A stretch of DNA of 64,000 nucleotides from Roseibium sp. (GTDB taxonomy: Bacteria; Pseudomonadota; Alphaproteobacteria; Rhizobiales; Stappiaceae): NCBI GenBank assembly GCA_017643215.1, contig JAEPNV010000003.1:248001-312000 (forward strand), in the 5' to 3' direction. Shown here in pieces: positions 19,991 to 27,854 of this stretch. The position numbers and the translations under genes were made by a program. How positions within the stretch are numbered: position 1 is the stretch's first letter; each line of letters opens with the position of its first letter. The notes under the pieces are model-generated. The model was given only the letters and a program-made list of their open reading frames with translations. It did no database searches and was not told the DNA's origin.

Positions 19991-20779
19991 ATGGGGGAAG
20001 TCCATCGCGGAAAGGGTGGTCCCGGTCGGGACGCCTGCCGAACGCCAAGGGCACGCGGTGACCGCTCTCGCGCCAGTGCCAACGGTGCAGGGCTGGCGGC
20101 CGCCTTCCTGATGGCGATCGCCGGCACGCACGGTGCCGCCGCCGAGGGCGGCGATCCAGGCAAAGGCGAGAAGCTCTACCGGTCGTGCAAATCCTGTCAC
20201 GAGATCGGCGCCAACGCCCGCAACGGGGTTGGGCCCCATCTGGACGGCCTGTTCGGTCGCGCTGCCGGGTCTCTCGAGGGCTTCAAATACTCGAGCGCAA
20301 TGAAGGAACTCGGCAGGAACGGCCTCGTCTGGAACGAGTTCACGCTCGATGTCTACCTGGAAAAACCACGCGAGTTCGTGCCCGGCACGCGCATGTCGTT
20401 CCGCGGCATGCGCGATCGGGACGATCGCCTTCACGTCATTGCCTATTTGAAAGCGCTGAGCGTCAATGCGCCGGCCGGCCCGGAGGCCGCGCCGGTTCTG
20501 GCCCGCGCGGAAATGGGTGCAGTCGCCATGCAATTGGACGGCGATGCCGCTTATGGTGAATATCTGTCCAGCGAATGCGTGACGTGCCACCAAATGTCCG
20601 GCCGCGCGGACGGCATTCCCTCCATTGTCGGCTGGCCGAAGGATTCATTCATCCGTGCCCTGTTCGAATACAAAACCAATATCCGTAGCCATCAGGTTAT
20701 GCAAAATATGACCGTCAACCTTGGGAATGAGGAGATCGCGGCTTTGGCGGCCTATTTCGGCGCACTCGATCCTCAATAG
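19991..20779 (+). CDS. soxE: SoxE, diheme cytochrome c, partner of SoxF
   Basis: A 262-residue c-type cytochrome with CKSCH at 66-70 and CVTCH at 196-200. The first domain (GPHLDGLFGRAAGSLEGFKY) resembles the first domain of SoxD closely, so the two probably share an origin. The N-terminus has an unusually long basic lead of about 30 residues before the hydrophobic signal core; a strong GGGGAGG before the ATG supports this start. With SoxF it forms a flavocytochrome c sulfide dehydrogenase of the periplasm. Confidence 0.88.
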   Translation: MGEVHRGKGGPGRDACRTPRARGDRSRASANGAGLAAAFLMAIAGTHGAAAEGGDPGKGEKLYRSCKSCHEIGANARNGVGPHLDGLFGRAAGSLEGFKYSSAMKELGRNGLVWNEFTLDVYLEKPREFVPGTRMSFRGMRDRDDRLHVIAYLKALSVNAPAGPEAAPVLARAEMGAVAMQLDGDAAYGEYLSSECVTCHQMSGRADGIPSIVGWPKDSFIRALFEYKTNIRSHQVMQNMTVNLGNEEIAALAAYFGALDPQ

Positions 20780-20830
20780 GGGATCCGATCCCGCCATTCG
20801 CCGACCGCATCGCAAGAGGGAGGAAGTGAC

Positions 20831-22108
20831 ATGCCCCAATTAACCCGCCGCGGCTTTAGTGTGTTGGCCGGCGCCAGCGCCGCCACCCTGGCCATGCCTT
20901 ACTATGCCCGCGCACAGGGCAAACCCAAGGCCGTCGTGATCGGCGGCGGCGCAGGCGGCGGCACGGCCGCCAGGTACATGGCCAAGGACGCGGGCGATGA
21001 AATGGACGTCACGCTGATCGAAGCGAACGCCATGTACACGACGTGCTTCTTTTCCAACCTGTATCTGGGCGGATTCCGTACCTTTGAGTCCATCACACAC
21101 GGCTATGACACCTTGGCCTCCAATTACGGGATCACCGTGGTGAACGCCATGGCCGATATGGTCGATCGGGACGCTAAGACGGTGGCATTGGCCGACGGGT
21201 CCAAGGTGCCTTACGACCGGCTCATTGTGGCGCCGGGGATCGACCTCATCTACGACAGCGTGCCCGGATATTCCGAGGCGGCGGCGGAAATCATGCCGCA
21301 CTCCTGGAAGGCCGGCCCACAGACGCAACTGTTGAAAGCCAAGCTTGATGCGATCGAAAACGGCCAGCAGATCGTCATGGTTGCGCCGCCCAATCCGTAC
21401 CGGTGCCCGCCCGGGCCGTATGAGCGGGTGTCCATGTTCGCTCATATGCTCAAGTCCAAGGGATTGAACGATTCCAAGATCGTGATCATCGATCCGAAGC
21501 CGAAGTTTTCCAAGCAGGCTCTGTTCCAGGAAGGCTGGGACAAGCACTATCCTGGGATGATCGAATGGTACGGCCCCGACGTTCATGGCGGGATCGTTGG
21601 TGTCGATCCGTCGACGGGCGAAGTGGAGACCGATCTGGACATCTTCACCGGCGATCTGGTGAATGTGATCCCGGCCCAAAAAGCTGGCATGATCGCCGCA
21701 AAGGCCGGGCTCACCAACGACAGCGGCTTCTGCCCGATCGACCCTTATTCGATGCGCTCCAAGATGGACGAGAACATCTTTGTGCTGGGTGATGCGTGCA
21801 TTGCCGGCGACATGCCCAAATCCGGGTTTTCGGCCAACAGCCAGGCCAAGGTCGCGGCCATGACCATCCGCGGCGATCTCATCGACGCCCGGGTGTTCCC
21901 GGCCAAATACTCCAACACATGCTGGAGCCTGATTGAAACCAATGACGGGGTGAAGGTCGGCGCCCAATACGCGCCGTCGGACGAAAAGATCGCCTCCACG
22001 TCGAAATTCATCAGCCAGACCGGAGAGGACGCCGCCGTCCGGCAAGCGACCTACGAAGAATCGATTGGCTGGTACGAGGGCATCACCACCGACATTTTCG
22101 GCGCCTAA
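20831..22108 (+). CDS. soxF: SoxF, flavoprotein of sulfide dehydrogenase
   Basis: A 425-residue FAD protein of the FCSD/SQR family. A Tat signal (LTRRGFSVLAG) and an FAD-binding GGGAGGGTAARY open the chain. The Cys in MYTTCFFSNLYLGG is placed as the covalent 8-alpha FAD attachment residue. The redox-active pair is Cys in PYRCPPGPYER and Cys in NTCWSLIE. It oxidises sulfide to sulfur or polysulfide and passes electrons to SoxE. It is the last gene of the sox unit: an inverted repeat and a terminator with a T run follow within 100 bp. Confidence 0.94.
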   Translation: MPQLTRRGFSVLAGASAATLAMPYYARAQGKPKAVVIGGGAGGGTAARYMAKDAGDEMDVTLIEANAMYTTCFFSNLYLGGFRTFESITHGYDTLASNYGITVVNAMADMVDRDAKTVALADGSKVPYDRLIVAPGIDLIYDSVPGYSEAAAEIMPHSWKAGPQTQLLKAKLDAIENGQQIVMVAPPNPYRCPPGPYERVSMFAHMLKSKGLNDSKIVIIDPKPKFSKQALFQEGWDKHYPGMIEWYGPDVHGGIVGVDPSTGEVETDLDIFTGDLVNVIPAQKAGMIAAKAGLTNDSGFCPIDPYSMRSKMDENIFVLGDACIAGDMPKSGFSANSQAKVAAMTIRGDLIDARVFPAKYSNTCWSLIETNDGVKVGAQYAPSDEKIASTSKFISQTGEDAAVRQATYEESIGWYEGITTDIFGA

Positions 22109-22173
22109 GCGCTTCCCCTGCGGATCCGGGCCTTCGCCACGCGGCGCCCGGATCCGTGTTGCAGCCAACTGAC

Positions 22174-22206
22174 CGGCGCCCGGTAAATCCCTGGCGCCGT
22201 TTTTTT
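22174..22206 (+). terminator. rho-independent terminator of the sox operon
   Basis: A perfect 7-bp stem (CGGCGCC with GGCGCCG) with a 12-base loop runs into seven T residues. A separate perfect 11-bp inverted repeat at 22121-22156 lies just after the soxF stop and may add a second pause or protect the 3-prime end. Confidence 0.85.
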
Positions 22207-22405
22207 ATCGCTTGTCCTTGCCGCGCGGCCATACGAACGGACAGGCAAGGACGCCGGTCCGGATCACAACGGTCTGCTGCCGGATATTCGGAGACGTGGC
22301 TTTACAGGCGGTGCCCATCTGGAGAAGGTTAGGTGCCTGCCCATTGTTGCCCGTGTGCTTTCCGCAACGCCGGCGACACCTCATGGAATTCGGAGTTCTT
22401 TGCCA

Positions 22406-23296
22406 ATGGACCGCGTGAGCCTTGCCCCTGACCTGGAAATAAGCCGTCTGGTTTACGGCATGTGGCGGCTCGGCGATGATCCGGACACCTCGCCGGCGCA
22501 TGTCGACCGCAAGATCCAGACCTGTCTCGACCAGGGCATCACCACGTTTGATCAGGCGGATATTTATGGCGGCTACACGGCCGAAGGCCTGCTGGGCGCC
22601 GCGCTCAAGGCCAACCCCGCTTTGCGGTCGAAGATGGAAATCGTCACCAAATGCGGCATCGTCGCGCCGATGGGCCGTTATGCCGACGCGAAGGTGAAAC
22701 ACTACAACACCTCCCGCGCGCACATTAAAAAGGCCGTTGATCAGTCACTGCAGGACATGGCGACCGGCCATATCGACCTCCTCCTTATTCACCGGCCCGA
22801 CCCTTTGATGGATCACCAGGACACCGGGCCAGCGCTGGATGATCTGGTTAAAAGCGGCAAGGTCCGCGCGGTCGGAGTATCGAATTTCAGGCCATGGGAC
22901 TGGGAACTGCTGCAATCGGCCATGTCCACGCAACTTGTGACCAATCAGTTGGAGATCAGCCTTGGCGCGTTGGGGCCGTTCAGCAACGGAGATCTGGCCT
23001 TTCACCAGCGGCTGGGCACCCATGTCATGGCTTGGTCGCCGCTTGGCGGCGGCGCCTTGATGAACCGCAAGGATGAGCTTGGCGCGGTGCTTGACGAGGT
23101 CGCGGCGGAGGCCGGCGTCGACCGCGGCGCCGTGGCCGTCGCGTTCTTGCTGGCCCACCCGGCTGGCATTGTGCCGGTTCTGGGAACAAACGCGCTTGAG
23201 CGCATCGCCAGGATCTCCGACGCGTTGAAGGTCCGCCTGGACCGTGAAACCTGGTTCCGTCTCTACGAGGCTGCCCTCGGCCATGAGGTGCCGTGA
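22406..23296 (+). CDS. aldo/keto reductase (YdhF-like)
   Basis: A 296-residue AKR-family oxidoreductase, beginning MDRVSLAPDLEISRLVYGMW. Catalytic residues appear as Asp and Tyr in TFDQADIYGGY, Lys in VTKCGIV and His in LLIHRPDPL. The C-terminal NADP pattern VPVLGTNALERI is present. It differs from the AKR at 2892 and fits the YdhF-type branch. The start at 22406 follows GGAG; an in-frame ATG at 22355 has no good ribosome site. It stands alone after the sox terminator. The substrate is unknown. Confidence 0.9.
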   Translation: MDRVSLAPDLEISRLVYGMWRLGDDPDTSPAHVDRKIQTCLDQGITTFDQADIYGGYTAEGLLGAALKANPALRSKMEIVTKCGIVAPMGRYADAKVKHYNTSRAHIKKAVDQSLQDMATGHIDLLLIHRPDPLMDHQDTGPALDDLVKSGKVRAVGVSNFRPWDWELLQSAMSTQLVTNQLEISLGALGPFSNGDLAFHQRLGTHVMAWSPLGGGALMNRKDELGAVLDEVAAEAGVDRGAVAVAFLLAHPAGIVPVLGTNALERIARISDALKVRLDRETWFRLYEAALGHEVP

Positions 23297-23745
23297 CGAA
23301 CAGCCGGCGCCGCCGGGTATCGGCGCCCCGCCCCGGCCGTGCTCAAAACACCTGCTTTTCATGCACGGCTTTCAGGAGTTGATCTCGGGCATGACCTTCC
23401 GCGCGATCGCGTCCAGAGAAGCCAATCCGGCACAAGGGTGCGGCCGGCTCGGTGGCGCCAAGCACGTTGCGGCTGGCGGGGCCCGTACGGACGCAACACA
23501 GAGTTGACGAACAAAAACAACATCCATAAGTTGTGATTTGTAGCGCCGCATAAAGCCATAAAAAGCCGTCCAACCGGCGCCGCATACTCTCGAACGAACA
23601 CAACATGATCGGAGTTTTGGGCTGGCCGGACCTTTTTGTCCGGCGGAGGGAACGCGTTTGGCCAATGCCCCGACCGGTGGCGGTCATCCGCGCATTGACC
23701 GTCCGAAATCCGGTTCGGCGACAGCGTACCGAAGAGGACACGACC
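23297..23745. other. intergenic stretch without a recognisable gene
   Basis: These 449 bp lie between the aldo/keto reductase and the thiaminase-like gene. A 7-bp inverted repeat (GGCGCCG at 23306 with CGGCGCC at 23321) without a T run may be a weak terminator. The stretch from about 23500 to 23620 is richer in A and T than its surroundings and probably holds the promoter of the next gene. No conserved protein or RNA was seen. Confidence 0.5.
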
Positions 23746-25212
23746 ATGATGAGGATATTCGGAATGAATTGGCCCGCGCGCACCGGGCGGACTGGCCTTC
23801 GCGCGATGGGCGCGGCCGCAAGACGCGGCGTGATCGCGCTTTCAATCGTCTTGGCCGGCGTCCTGTTGCCGGTCAAAGCGGGGATCGCCGAGACCCTGAC
23901 AGTCGCGCTCTACCCCTACGTCCCCCGGGTCGACCAGTTCAAGACGGCCATCACCGAGGCATGGCAGAAGGTCCAGCCGTCGGTGAATCTCGTCTATGTT
24001 CCGACCAATGAGTGGGACGGCGGCTACAGTGATGACCCGAAGTCCACCTATGACGTTTTTGTCTTCGACGCCATGTATTTCGAGTACTTCCGGTCCAAGG
24101 GCTATCTGGCGTCGATGAGCCCGGGCGAGATTGCCAATGAATCGGATTTTCTAAGCTATGCGATCGATGGCGTGAAGGTCAGCGGGAACTACTACGCGAT
24201 CCCGTTGCTTGGCTGCGCCAACATCCTGTTTTTCGATAAGGCGAATACGGCGCTGAAAAACGCCACGACCCTATCAGACGTCAATTCGGCCCTCGGCCAG
24301 TGCACCTACACCTCCGAAATTCCGCCGGACCGGCGCGGTCTGATGGTCGATATGGCAGGCACGACAACCAATGTCGCCCTTTACGCCGACACGGCCCATT
24401 CGCTCACCGGGACCTACCCGCTGCCACAGCCGGCCCCAAGCAACCTGAACCAGCAAGCCATCGCCAACATGACCTCCATCATGTCAATGGCGAGTTTCCG
24501 GGACGCGACCGCCCACAACGTGCCGGCCTACGGCCGTGCGGCCTGGTACAATTCCGGCTATGGGACCGCGTATGTCGGGTACACGGAAAGCATGTCTCAG
24601 ATGAGCGCTTCCACCCTGGCGAACATCGATTTCAAGGTGATGCCGTTGTCCAATGCCGGCAACCGGCCGCTGTTTTACGCTGATGTCATCGGCGTCAATG
24701 CGGCGATCACCAATCCGGGCCGCCGGGCGCTCGCGGTTCAACTGGCGAATGTGATGGCCGCCTCGGACACGGTCGTGAACGCCTACAAGGCCGAAACGAC
24801 GGGCGGAAATCCGCAATACTTGATGGCGACCCGGACCAGTGTCTTCAAGACCCTGGCGCAGACCTACCCGCTCTATGCCAACATGCTGTCGCTTGTTACC
24901 GACAACAACCCGCTGATGTTCAAGCTCGACGCGTCAGCGCGAACCTGGATCACGTCCGTTGGCAGCACGATCAAGACCGAGACGCGGACCGCCTACACAT
25001 GCGGCTGCGATTTTCCCGCGGCCCAACCGATCTTCGGCAACGCTTCCGCACCGCCCATTTGCAACGCCACATGCCTTGACCACGGCGGCTGGAACGGCCA
25101 ATGGACCAACCAATATCCAGCCGCCCAGGATGGATCCGTGTGCGGCTGCAACAGTTGCCCGACAGGCTTGTCATTGACGCTGGAGGACGTCACCAAGCGG
25201 CCTCATTATTGA
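23746..25212 (+). CDS. secreted thiaminase I-like protein with C-terminal Cys-rich mannan-binding-like domain
   Basis: A 488-residue exported protein. A long n-region and hydrophobic core end near GIAET (residue 50). Residues 51-410 have a periplasmic-binding-protein fold resembling thiaminase I (thiamine pyridinylase): LTVALYPYVP, then DVFVFDAMYFEYF, then the nucleophile region PLLGCANILFF with Cys157, and the catalytic-base region VGYTESMS with Glu281. The 124-residue gap compares with 128 between Cys113 and Glu241 in the Paenibacillus enzyme. Residues about 424-471 form a Cys-rich tail (QPIFGNASAPPIC, HGGWNGQW, SVCGCNSC) like the mannan-binding MVL family. No thiamine gene lies nearby. GAGG lies 8 bases before the ATG and a UUCG-loop terminator follows. 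Substrate is inferred; a general solute-binding role is the alternative. Confidence 0.7.
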   Translation: MMRIFGMNWPARTGRTGLRAMGAAARRGVIALSIVLAGVLLPVKAGIAETLTVALYPYVPRVDQFKTAITEAWQKVQPSVNLVYVPTNEWDGGYSDDPKSTYDVFVFDAMYFEYFRSKGYLASMSPGEIANESDFLSYAIDGVKVSGNYYAIPLLGCANILFFDKANTALKNATTLSDVNSALGQCTYTSEIPPDRRGLMVDMAGTTTNVALYADTAHSLTGTYPLPQPAPSNLNQQAIANMTSIMSMASFRDATAHNVPAYGRAAWYNSGYGTAYVGYTESMSQMSASTLANIDFKVMPLSNAGNRPLFYADVIGVNAAITNPGRRALAVQLANVMAASDTVVNAYKAETTGGNPQYLMATRTSVFKTLAQTYPLYANMLSLVTDNNPLMFKLDASARTWITSVGSTIKTETRTAYTCGCDFPAAQPIFGNASAPPICNATCLDHGGWNGQWTNQYPAAQDGSVCGCNSCPTGLSLTLEDVTKRPHY

Positions 25213-25242
25213 TCCGCCGTGCCCGGCGCCCGGCGGAAAACA

Positions 25243-25271
25243 AAGCTCCGGTTTCGACCGGGGCTTTTTTT
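25243..25271 (+). terminator. rho-independent terminator after the thiaminase-like gene
   Basis: A 10-bp stem (AAGCTCCGGT with ACCGGGGCTT, one G-T wobble) closes a TTCG tetraloop and runs into seven T residues. Confidence 0.9.
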
Positions 25272-25395
25272 AACCCTGGGACTGTGAAATATACGCGTCG
25301 TGCGGTGTAAGCGCGCTGTTGCCGGGCCGCGCGCCAATGCCCATCTACCAAGATTGCCGCACATCGGCCGTCAACGCATCAATCGAAAGCATCCG

Positions 25396-26937
25396 ATGAA
25401 AAGCTACATCACGACCCCGATCTACTATGTGAACGGCTCGCCGCATATCGGCCATGCCTACACGTCGATCGTCGCGGACATCCTGAAACGGAACCGTCAG
25501 GCCTTGGGGTACGACATGATGCTGTCGACCGGCGTCGACGAACACGGCCAGAAGAACCAGGAAGCGGCGGCCGACCTGGGCATGGACATCACCGAATATC
25601 TCGACATGCGCGGCGCGGAATTCCGCAAGGTGTTCGACATGCTCGATGTCACATACGACTATTTCGTGCGCACCAGCCAGGACGGCCACAAGACGGCCGT
25701 CGCGGGCATGGAACAGACGATTTTCGACAAGGGCCTGATCGTCAAGCACGAATACACCGGCCAGTACTGCAAGGGCTGCGAGCAGTTCAAGAAGGAGTCC
25801 GACCTGACCGAAGACGGTCAGTGTCCGCTGCATCCGACGATGCAGATCGAGGAGATCGACGAAACCAACTACTTCCTGAAGATGGAACCGTTTCGTCAGG
25901 CCCTGCAGAAGCACATCGAGGACAACCCGGACTTCGTGACGCCCGAGCATTTCAAGACGGAACTCAAACAGATGCTCGCCGAGCCGCTGGAGGACCTGTG
26001 CATTTCCCGGCCGAAATCGCGGGTGACATTGGGCGTGGATTTGCCCTTTGACCAGAGTTTCGTGACCTATGTCTGGTTCGACGCGCTGACCAACTATCTG
26101 ACCAACATCGATTGGCCGGACGGCGACTACCAGGCCTGGTGGGCGACCTGCGAGCACCTGATCGGCAAGGACATCTTGAAGCCGCATGGCGTCTACTGGC
26201 CGATCATGCTGATGGCCGCCGATCTGCCGCTGCCGAAGAAGCTGTCCGTGCACAGCCATTGGGTCGGCGCGGGCGGCGTGAAGATGTCGAAGTCGATCGG
26301 CAACGTCGTCGATCCGGTCGAGATCGTCGACACCATGGGCGCCGATGCGCTGCGCTGGTATCTCGCCCGTCATATGCGGGCCGACACCGACAGCCAGATT
26401 TCGGTCGAATACATCCGCCAAGCCTACAACAGCGAACTTGGCAACAAGATCGGCAACCTTCTGTCGCGGGCGGCGAAATTCGCCCGCAGCCGGTTCGATG
26501 GCCACCTGCCCGATCGGCACGACCTAACGTCCGAGGACGAAGCGATCCGCGCCGCGGTCATGAAGGCGACCGAGGGCTTTGCCAATTGGCTGGATCTTGC
26601 CGACATCCCGCATCGGGTCCAGGACGTCATCACGGTCTGCGACGAGATGAACAACTACTTCGCGGAACAGGCGCCGTGGGATCTGATCAAGGACCCCGCG
26701 ACCGTGGAACGCTGCCAGACGGTGATTTACGTGACGCTGGATTGCCTGCGGATTGTGTTTGAAGCCCTGCGCCAGGTGATCCCGGCCTCGGCCGACAAGG
26801 CGCTCGGCATGTTGAACAGCCCGGCGGATGACATTGCCTGCCCGTGGCGTCCGGAACTCGACACACTGCCCGCCGGCACGCCGCTTGGTGAGATCGCAAC
26901 GCTCTATCCGCGCGTCAACGCTCCGGAAGCGGCGTAA
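25396..26937 (+). CDS. metG: methionyl-tRNA synthetase
   Basis: A 513-residue class I aminoacyl-tRNA synthetase charging tRNA-Met with methionine in the cytoplasm. The HIGH motif is PHIGHAYTS near the N-terminus and the KMSKS motif is GVKMSKSIGN. A zinc-knuckle region (CKGCEQF with CPLH) is reduced to one knuckle, as in the shorter bacterial type. The C-terminal dimerisation domain of the E. coli enzyme is absent, normal for alphaproteobacteria. The start at 25396 gives the conserved MKSYITTPIYYVNG opening. The 3-prime end overlaps the convergent LysR gene by 34 bp. Confidence 0.96.
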   Translation: MKSYITTPIYYVNGSPHIGHAYTSIVADILKRNRQALGYDMMLSTGVDEHGQKNQEAAADLGMDITEYLDMRGAEFRKVFDMLDVTYDYFVRTSQDGHKTAVAGMEQTIFDKGLIVKHEYTGQYCKGCEQFKKESDLTEDGQCPLHPTMQIEEIDETNYFLKMEPFRQALQKHIEDNPDFVTPEHFKTELKQMLAEPLEDLCISRPKSRVTLGVDLPFDQSFVTYVWFDALTNYLTNIDWPDGDYQAWWATCEHLIGKDILKPHGVYWPIMLMAADLPLPKKLSVHSHWVGAGGVKMSKSIGNVVDPVEIVDTMGADALRWYLARHMRADTDSQISVEYIRQAYNSELGNKIGNLLSRAAKFARSRFDGHLPDRHDLTSEDEAIRAAVMKATEGFANWLDLADIPHRVQDVITVCDEMNNYFAEQAPWDLIKDPATVERCQTVIYVTLDCLRIVFEALRQVIPASADKALGMLNSPADDIACPWRPELDTLPAGTPLGEIATLYPRVNAPEAA

Positions 26938-27854
26938 CCGGCATTGGATCCAGAACTTTGACCGGCGGATCCAAGCCCGCCGGTCTTGCCGTCTTCCGAA
27001 TTGGCTTCGGCTTCAAACGCCGCCTCGATCACATCGGCCAGCCGCCGTGCCGCAAGACCGGCATCCGCCGCGGTCACCATCAAGATCTCCGTCGCCTCCA
27101 GGGCCGGCATGCGGTCACCGGTCTCCACGACCAGATCGGGCGGCGCCATGTGCTCCGGCAGGACCGCAATCCCAAGGCCTGCCCGCACGGCCGCGAGCGC
27201 CCCGGCCAGCGATCCGCAGACATAGGCGGCGCGGGGTTCGTGACCGGTGTTGCGGATCGCCTCCACCGCCCGTTTTCGATAGACACAAGGTTCGGGGCTG
27301 ACAACGAGCGGCAGCCCGGCTCGCGGCCATAAAAGCTCCGGATTTGCGGCCACCCAGACGAGCGGCTCGGCCCAGACCCGTTGACCGCCGATCGGGGCGG
27401 CCGGTTCGCGTTTCAAGAGCACAACATCCAGGCGCCCGTCCCGGAACCGGTCGAGAAGGTTGAGCGTCAGATCGCAGGTCACCTCCAGGCTGACTTTCGG
27501 ATGGGCCGCGGCAAACGCTGCGAGGGCCTTGGGCAAATAAGTGGTCGCGATGTCCTCCGGCGTTCCGAGCCGGATCAGCCCGGAGACGTCCTCCCCGCGA
27601 AATGCGGCAATGGCCGCGCTGTTCAGATCCAGGATCTTTTCCGCGAACGTCATGAGCCGCTCGCCGGCCGGGGTCAGAACCACCGTACGCGCATTGCGCC
27701 GGAGCAACCGCTCGCCGAGAAAATCCTCCAGTTTCCGGATTTGAAGCGACACGGCCGATTGGCTGCGAAACAGCGTTTCCCCGGCTTTGGTGAAGCTGCC
27801 GGTCCGCGCGGTCAAAACAAAGGCCCGCAACAGGGCCGGATCAATGGTGTCCAT
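26904..27854 (-). CDS. LysR-family transcriptional regulator
   Basis: A 316-residue LysR protein. The N-terminal helix-turn-helix is visible in FVLTARTGSFTKAGETLF and RSQSAVSLQIRKLEDFLG. An effector-binding domain follows. A Gly/Ser-rich tail of about 25 residues extends the C-terminus past the usual end and is the part that overlaps metG. The ATG at 27854 begins the conserved MDTIDPALLRAFV; an upstream TTG at 27878 is less likely. It is divergent from icd, 105 bp away, and may control it, although the effector is unknown. Confidence 0.9.
   Translation of the reverse strand: MDTIDPALLRAFVLTARTGSFTKAGETLFRSQSAVSLQIRKLEDFLGERLLRRNARTVVLTPAGERLMTFAEKILDLNSAAIAAFRGEDVSGLIRLGTPEDIATTYLPKALAAFAAAHPKVSLEVTCDLTLNLLDRFRDGRLDVVLLKREPAAPIGGQRVWAEPLVWVAANPELLWPRAGLPLVVSPEPCVYRKRAVEAIRNTGHEPRAAYVCGSLAGALAAVRAGLGIAVLPEHMAPPDLVVETGDRMPALEATEILMVTAADAGLAARRLADVIEAAFEAEANSEDGKTGGLGSAGQSSGSNAGYAASGALTRG

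Follow-up and report, generated by a model that had tools for sequence, protein, structure and literature searches.

The window analysed here is a stretch of 64,000 nucleotides from a Roseibium sp. (contig JAEPNV010000003.1, positions 248,001 to 312,000 of the forward strand); positions below are those of the window unless a locus name precedes them. On its + strand, we found an open reading frame that starts with an ATG at 23746 and whose stop codon ends at 25212 (488 codons plus stop). The frame appears to encode an exported thiaminase I, an enzyme that cleaves thiamine, followed by a Cys-rich C-terminal tail that resembles the domains of the Microcystis viridis lectin MVL. We confirmed that the gene is real and that its product has two domains, with the following features:

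23746..25212, + strand: coding sequence (open reading frame, 488 amino acids) of a probably exported thiaminase I with a C-terminal Cys-rich MVL-type domain
23732..23738, + strand: Shine-Dalgarno-like AAGAGGA, about 7 nt 5' of the ATG (from reading the sequence)
23746..23883, + strand: N-terminal signal-like segment, residues ~1–46, basic and then hydrophobic (GVIALSIVLAGVLLP), without a lipobox Cys
23893..24960, + strand: thiaminase I catalytic domain, residues ~50–405 (TIGR04541 at 46–402; PDB 4kys at 48–405; PF22141 at 158–302)
24214..24216, + strand: Cys157 codon, predicted nucleophile (opposite C113 of 2thi)
24301..24303, + strand: Cys186 codon, predicted to pair with Cys419 in an interdomain disulfide
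24586..24588, + strand: Glu281 codon, predicted base (opposite E241 of 2thi)
24988..25161, + strand: Cys-rich tail, residues 415–472, with seven Cys (419, 421, 439, 443, 466, 468, 471)
25000..25002, + strand: Cys419 codon
25042..25149, + strand: MVL (PF12151) match, residues 433–468 (29.3 bits, cut-off 25)

The hydrophobic part of the signal-like segment is pronounced (residues 28–42, mean hydropathy 2.48), and the first Cys of the protein is residue 157. With no Cys before that residue, the N-terminus has the look of a general export signal rather than that of a lipoprotein.

A preliminary description of this gene, made from the letters alone, had recognised a thiaminase I pattern in residues 51–410, and profile searches bear this out. 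The NCBIfam model for thiamine pyridinylase (TIGR04541) matches residues 46–402 with 425.1 bits against a cut-off of 175 (E=2.2e-127), Pfam PF22141 matches the catalytic domain (E=3.4e-48) and the top PDB matches are the solved thiaminases I 4kys (E=2e-74) and 2thi (E=6e-66), with 4hcw as a distant match (E=6e-9). Counted along the 2thi alignment, Cys157 lies opposite Cys113 and Glu281 opposite Glu241, in agreement with the nucleophile and base that had been proposed from their spacing. Among the aligned proteins, all 13 that are full-length have Cys157, and Glu281 is present in all 14 once a fragment is counted as well. These matches make identity as a thiaminase I near certain. The thiaminase I fold is common with solute-binding proteins; since other proteins score about 19–31 bits with TIGR04541 as compared to 425 here, the assignment reflects more than a shared fold. 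The predicted place of Cys157 in the cleft of a two-lobed fold follows solely from alignment to 4kys and 2thi; an AlphaFold model of the whole protein, built from 7 sequences, was too poor for use (mean pLDDT, the predicted local distance difference test, 40.8; tail 22–26 by block). The window protein thus shares the whole catalytic domain and the Cys/Glu pair with the Paenibacillus (2thi) and Clostridium (4kys) enzymes (EC 2.5.1.2; TIGR04541/PF22141); however, it adds a Cys-rich C-terminal domain and Cys186. The Naegleria thiaminase I (4hcw) is a distant relative of the catalytic domain and has neither the tail nor a Cys at position 186.

The tail had been described as an MVL-type domain in residues 424–471. 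Pfam MVL (PF12151) matches residues 433–468 with 29.3 bits, above the curated cut-off of 25 (E=8.7e-7), and the motifs on which that description rested are present (QPIFGNA from 427, CNATC at 439–443, GGWNGQW from 447 and SVCGC at 464–468). In a profile check of both halves that had been set beforehand, the best matches of the first were to thiaminase I and not to a sugar- or metal-binding protein, and the tail matched MVL. When we built a profile from 12 Cys-rich modules, five of them from proteins that are not thiaminases, its only PDB matches were 1zhq and 1zhs (both MVL; E=7.7e-7), with both MVL repeats aligned, and hhalign of the same set against two MVL fragments, taken from the 1zhq match of a profile of seven thiaminase tails, gave 83.9%. 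Because this wider set matches MVL clearly and the thiaminase tails alone match it weakly, we place the tail, by its profile matches, within the MVL domain family, in a Cys-rich branch of it; by the same comparison the thiaminase tails are further from MVL than are the modules of two other proteins described below (L059 and L061). The window protein and MVL (PF12151; 1zhq, 1zhs) have in common the pattern N-A-x-A ... G-Q-W-T. The GQWT core is present in most aligned rows, and GGWNGQWTNQ (GNFTGQWTT in MVL) is among the best conserved parts. In contrast to MVL, which has two repeats, no Cys in the aligned parts and exists as a free lectin, the window protein has a single, enzyme-fused copy that contains seven Cys; one MVL match stretch was found and the two tandem repeats of the Microcystis protein are not present, and the 36-position Pfam model does not require two repeats. 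In the accessible text of PMC8004682, MVL is described as having two repeats per chain and as binding N-glycan cores.

The protein has eight Cys besides the nucleophile. Both C186 and C419 are found in 12 of 13 full-length tailed enzymes, and both are missing from L011, the most divergent of them. No Cys occupies the C186 place in the tailless 4kys, 2thi and 4hcw, which lends the pairing some weight. A C186–C419 bond thus probably ties the tail to the catalytic domain.

The preliminary description expected a thiaminase that sticks to glycan surfaces to be unusual; the fusion itself is no one-off, since every proteobacterial thiaminase I that we collected has the tail. A thiaminase model without the tail gave matches over cut-off in 4 of 385 genomes sampled from the class (the window's own included), in 1 of 398 sampled from the phylum (the window's own) and in 8 of 65 Burkholderia genomes, and the tail is present on 12 of the 12 distinct proteobacterial thiaminases found in this way. 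A search whose query contained the tail turned up a further two, L002 and L004, which are also tailed; with these, PF22141 and PF12151 each match in 14 of 14 proteins (E ≤ 0.01). L003 and L009 are one protein under two names, and so are L005 and L088, which a contig end truncates to a fragment. The fragment L005:1-966 comes from a Burkholderia multivorans draft in which the gene is cut at the contig start, and its similarity to the window protein begins at residue 211 of the latter. We therefore reject a one-off or assembly-made fusion, given the tail on all 12 enzymes found with the tail-free model. The tail is also well conserved: its median identity is 61% as compared to 49% for the catalytic domain, and in 70 of 78 pairwise comparisons of full-length proteins its conservation equals or exceeds that of the catalytic domain. 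The Burkholderia thiaminases I have the same two-domain build (tail in 8 of the 8 genomes over cut-off) and are ~47–52% identical to the window protein; they are named in PMC4475313, in whose accessible text the tail is not mentioned and the word 'mannan' does not occur. The solved thiaminases 4kys, 2thi and 4hcw all end before the tail.

A Xanthobacteraceae draft contig (L006:3-86) starts inside the same kind of tail (HGGWNGQWTNQ...); it was left out of the count, and this tail end makes another carrier likely. Among plasmids, tblastn returned three records: two are Rhodococcus fascians D188 entries, with a plasmid thiaminase whose similarity runs no further than query residue 412, and one is annotated as a solute-binding protein. 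There was no match in a blastn search of the thiaminase gene against plasmids or in a tblastn search against phages, and two scans of viral contigs with the tail profiles found no relative; within these searches, carriage by a plasmid or phage was rejected.

The Cys-rich module is also found on proteins of other kinds. A search of 398 genomes sampled from the phylum, made with a profile of the tail, gave a match in five, including the window's own genome. L061:1486-2565 (– strand) encodes a C-N hydrolase (PF00795) that opens with a signal-like segment and ends in a Cys-rich MVL domain (57 bits). L060:37-1671 is a CxxCH-bearing protein of ~500 residues with a C-terminal MVL domain and otherwise only a sub-threshold match to cytochrome P460, and similar proteins (~500 residues, CxxCH, C-terminal MVL) are present in Crenothrix and Shewanella (L007:2549-4045 and L008:6573-8168); Pfam scans of this type covered L060 and L007. 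L059:1441-1668 is a stand-alone Cys-rich MVL domain, whose frame has 116 residues and begins with a signal-like segment. In the fifth match, L062, the frame is interrupted by stops. From these architectures, the Cys-rich MVL module looks like a reusable end-module of exported proteins. We found no description of a tail on thiaminase I in the open-licence literature, although subscription papers may describe one, and 'thiamin' does not occur in the accessible text of a paper on cyanobacterial lectins that cites PF12151. The tail points to a little-studied Cys-rich MVL module carried by several kinds of protein.

The host genome (4.99 Mb, 99.99% complete) has one thiaminase I and one MVL match over cut-off. 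Neither thiC nor thiG was found in it, and as judged from the genes found the host seems to make neither half of thiamine itself. It does have genes to join and recover the halves: thiM passes NF006830 (208.4, cut-off 180), thiD passes TIGR00097 (321.3, cut-off 204.95), thiE passes NF000734 (290.7, cut-off 252) and TenA just passes TIGR04306 (133.4, cut-off 130). There are two thiamine pyrophosphate (TPP) riboswitches in the genome. One, followed by thiM and thiD (L057:5814-7593), shares a contig with the thiaminase gene at a distance of ~180 kb. Behind the other are genes for a permease and for a binding protein that Pfam assigns to the NMT1/THI5-like family (233.9 bits, cut-off 20.5); this pair resembles a ThiX/ThiY transporter. 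By analogy, the gene set resembles the salvage-only set of P. thiaminolyticus and strain C454. In the available portion of PMC5627462, those two lack thiC and have thiM, thiD and thiE in the thiaminase operon, and the authors propose salvage; in contrast, the salvage genes of our host lie apart from the thiaminase gene. A further precedent comes from B. thailandensis, for which the accessible part of PMC10147936 reports thiaminase activity in culture supernatants and cites work on a growth advantage from salvage.

On balance, and with moderate confidence, we favour a reading in which the exported thiaminase I turns thiamine (or its analogues) outside the cell into halves that can be salvaged, while the MVL-type tail holds it near a surface. 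A role in salvage is likely: because thiC and thiG were not found and a riboswitch-led salvage set is present, precursor salvage is favoured over attack on neighbours. The signal would be removed before the catalytic domain acts. Family membership suggests the chemistry: Cys157, activated by Glu281, would attack the pyrimidine of thiamine or of an analogue at the methylene bridge, the thiazole would leave and a second nucleophile (an amine or a thiol) would take the pyrimidine. The halves would then be imported, perhaps by the ThiX/ThiY-like transporter, and rejoined by ThiM, ThiD and ThiE, and TenA may aid recovery of the pyrimidine. The single MVL-type module, presumably stabilised by disulfides and with Cys186–Cys419 as a probable link to the catalytic domain, would most likely keep the enzyme at a glycan-bearing surface (the producer's own envelope or matrix, or nearby particles or cells), and the products would be freed near the producer.

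Several observations weigh against this reading. For the tail, the profile of seven thiaminase tails has MVL 1zhq as its sole PDB match up to E=1 and that match is weak (E=0.42), hhalign against the same two MVL fragments gave 39.5% when the thiaminase tails were used alone, and the position of MVL Trp13, a residue that presumably contacts the sugar, is F430 in the window protein and P (6), A (5), H (1) or G (1) among 13 relatives, such that the Trp is not kept. Where the other enzymes are invariant, L011 also differs at 22 of 79 positions in the catalytic domain and at 5 of 22 in the tail, and an argument for the C186–C419 pairing from L011 alone is statistically weak (~6% by chance). In the host, thiM falls below the TIGR00694 cut-off and thiE below that of TIGR00693, and the riboswitch-led binding protein passes no NCBIfam cut-off, its best match being to the sulfonate-type SsuA family (67.6 vs 163.5). 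Near the thiaminase gene, a low-threshold Rfam scan of 22000–27000 found no TPP riboswitch, its sole match being below its gathering score. As the preliminary description had noted, no thiamine gene adjoins it; no bacimethrin gene was found beside it either, the adjacent genes being an aldo/keto reductase (22355–23296) and MetG (~25396–26937), and the salvage set lies elsewhere in the host. The BcmE-type bacimethrin/thiaminase operon described in the part of PMC5627462 available differs in this respect, its thiaminase gene lying beside bacimethrin or thiamine genes. Finally, the supernatant activity reported for B. thailandensis (PMC10147936, in its accessible part) suggests by analogy that the Burkholderia enzymes are released.

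The thiamine genes of other carriers weigh on the same side. We found a thiC match in three of seven thiaminase carriers (G096, G746, G747) and none in four (G000, G247, G327, G744), as compared to 16 of 19 non-carriers. The latter were drawn from the order of the host and are unmatched to the other carriers, and G744, G746 and G747 have no completeness figure. The link between loss of thiC and carriage of thiaminase falls short of significance (Fisher p=0.057; 7 carriers, 19 non-carriers). Full thiG matches are present in the same three carriers (G096, G746, G747) and none was found in G000, G247 or G744. The match in G327 is short (28.2 bits, formally over the Pfam cut-off) with one internal TGA, and we rejected it as ThiG because it overlaps a ThiE-family match. 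Thus, two alphaproteobacterial carriers (G096, G746) and the Burkholderia carrier G747 keep both thiC and thiG. Both genes are present in the genome of Terasakiella brassicae, a culturable carrier. Conversely, the non-carrier G620, which belongs to the same family as our host, lacks thiC, and its thiG match is below cut-off and overlaps a ThiE-family match; auxotrophy therefore does not require thiaminase. Among non-carriers with thiC, G189 has no thiG match and G471 only a short one, and loss of thiG therefore also occurs without thiaminase. TenA is found in carriers G000, G327, G096, G744 and G746, weakly in G747, and not in G247.

The alternative that best survives concerns the tail and leaves the thiaminase function unchanged. 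The tail may no longer be a lectin; it could instead bind no sugar and serve as a disulfide-rich cap or clamp, either lending stability to the exported enzyme or giving the entrance of its cleft its shape. We consider this possible but tentative. The lost Trp13 position fits such a part, as do the seven Cys (four in the L061 tail), the possible covalent tie to the catalytic domain and the single copy where MVL has two per chain (PMC8004682, in its accessible text). However, the module is also found alone and on proteins of unrelated kinds, which would be expected if it served for binding and were not a part of one enzyme, and the GGWNGQWTNQ core is among the best conserved parts.

The enzyme could also be a weapon that starves thiamine-requiring neighbours (fungi, oomycetes, algae or bacteria), and the tail would direct it to their glycans. 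The accessible text of PMC10499793 gives a precedent, in that a lipid-anchored myxobacterial thiaminase I stops Phytophthora by thiamine removal and a C148A/E269A mutant loses the effect, and the binding of N-glycan cores by MVL (PMC8004682, as available) would suit such placement. We regard this use as unlikely in the present host: thiC and thiG were not found there, thiamine destruction without recovery of the parts would harm the host itself, and the host has a salvage set. A bolder combination, which we hold to be rather improbable, would have the tail target the enzyme to the glycans that coat eukaryotic neighbours (fungi, oomycetes, algae); by cutting leaking thiamine there, it would starve them and at the same time feed a producer unable to make either half, the Cys-rich MVL module then being a general proteobacterial tether for exported enzymes.

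It is quite improbable that the enzyme mainly clears thiamine that is spoilt, or toxic analogues (methoxythiamin, oxythiamin, pyrithiamin), before they are taken up. Pyrithiamine cleavage is mentioned in the available part of PMC5627462 and Microcystis releases thiamin antivitamins according to that of PMC12345177; however, a scan of five nearby genes showed no antivitamin gene. An ordinary sugar- or metal-binding protein of an ATP-binding cassette (ABC) transporter, with no enzymatic role, is almost certainly the wrong description and we rejected it: SBP_bac_1 does match 3 of the 14 members, and two of the weak TIGR04541 matches elsewhere that we inspected (L015, L018) look like ABC-transporter solute-binding proteins, but such sub-cut-off matches reach ~19–31 bits as compared to 425, the nucleophile and base are conserved, and no transporter gene is among the five nearby genes scanned.

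Taken together, the preliminary description is partly supported in its interpretation, and salvage near a surface is the reading that we carry forward. A parallel is offered by the myxobacterial CcThi1 and MxThi1, which are likewise thiaminases I of Gram-negative bacteria that lie outside the cell and have the Cys/Glu pair; unlike the window protein, they are held by a lipoprotein anchor and by vesicles, and we liken them by their description alone, as given in the accessible text of PMC10499793. By this comparison, retention through a lectin-like tail may be a different solution to the problem of keeping an enzyme that makes shared goods close to its producer. The biological function of thiaminase I has long been a mystery (PMC10499793, in the same text). 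With the enzyme in a host that has a salvage route and in which thiC and thiG were not found, removal of the tail or of the whole enzyme would help to separate salvage from attack.

We found no sigma-70-like promoter by the thiaminase gene. Just upstream in the window, at 19991–22108, lies a likely sulfide-oxidation pair: a frame resembling cytochrome c, in which two CxxCH motifs were seen by eye, and after it the flavoprotein of a flavocytochrome c sulfide dehydrogenase (PF21706, PF09242).
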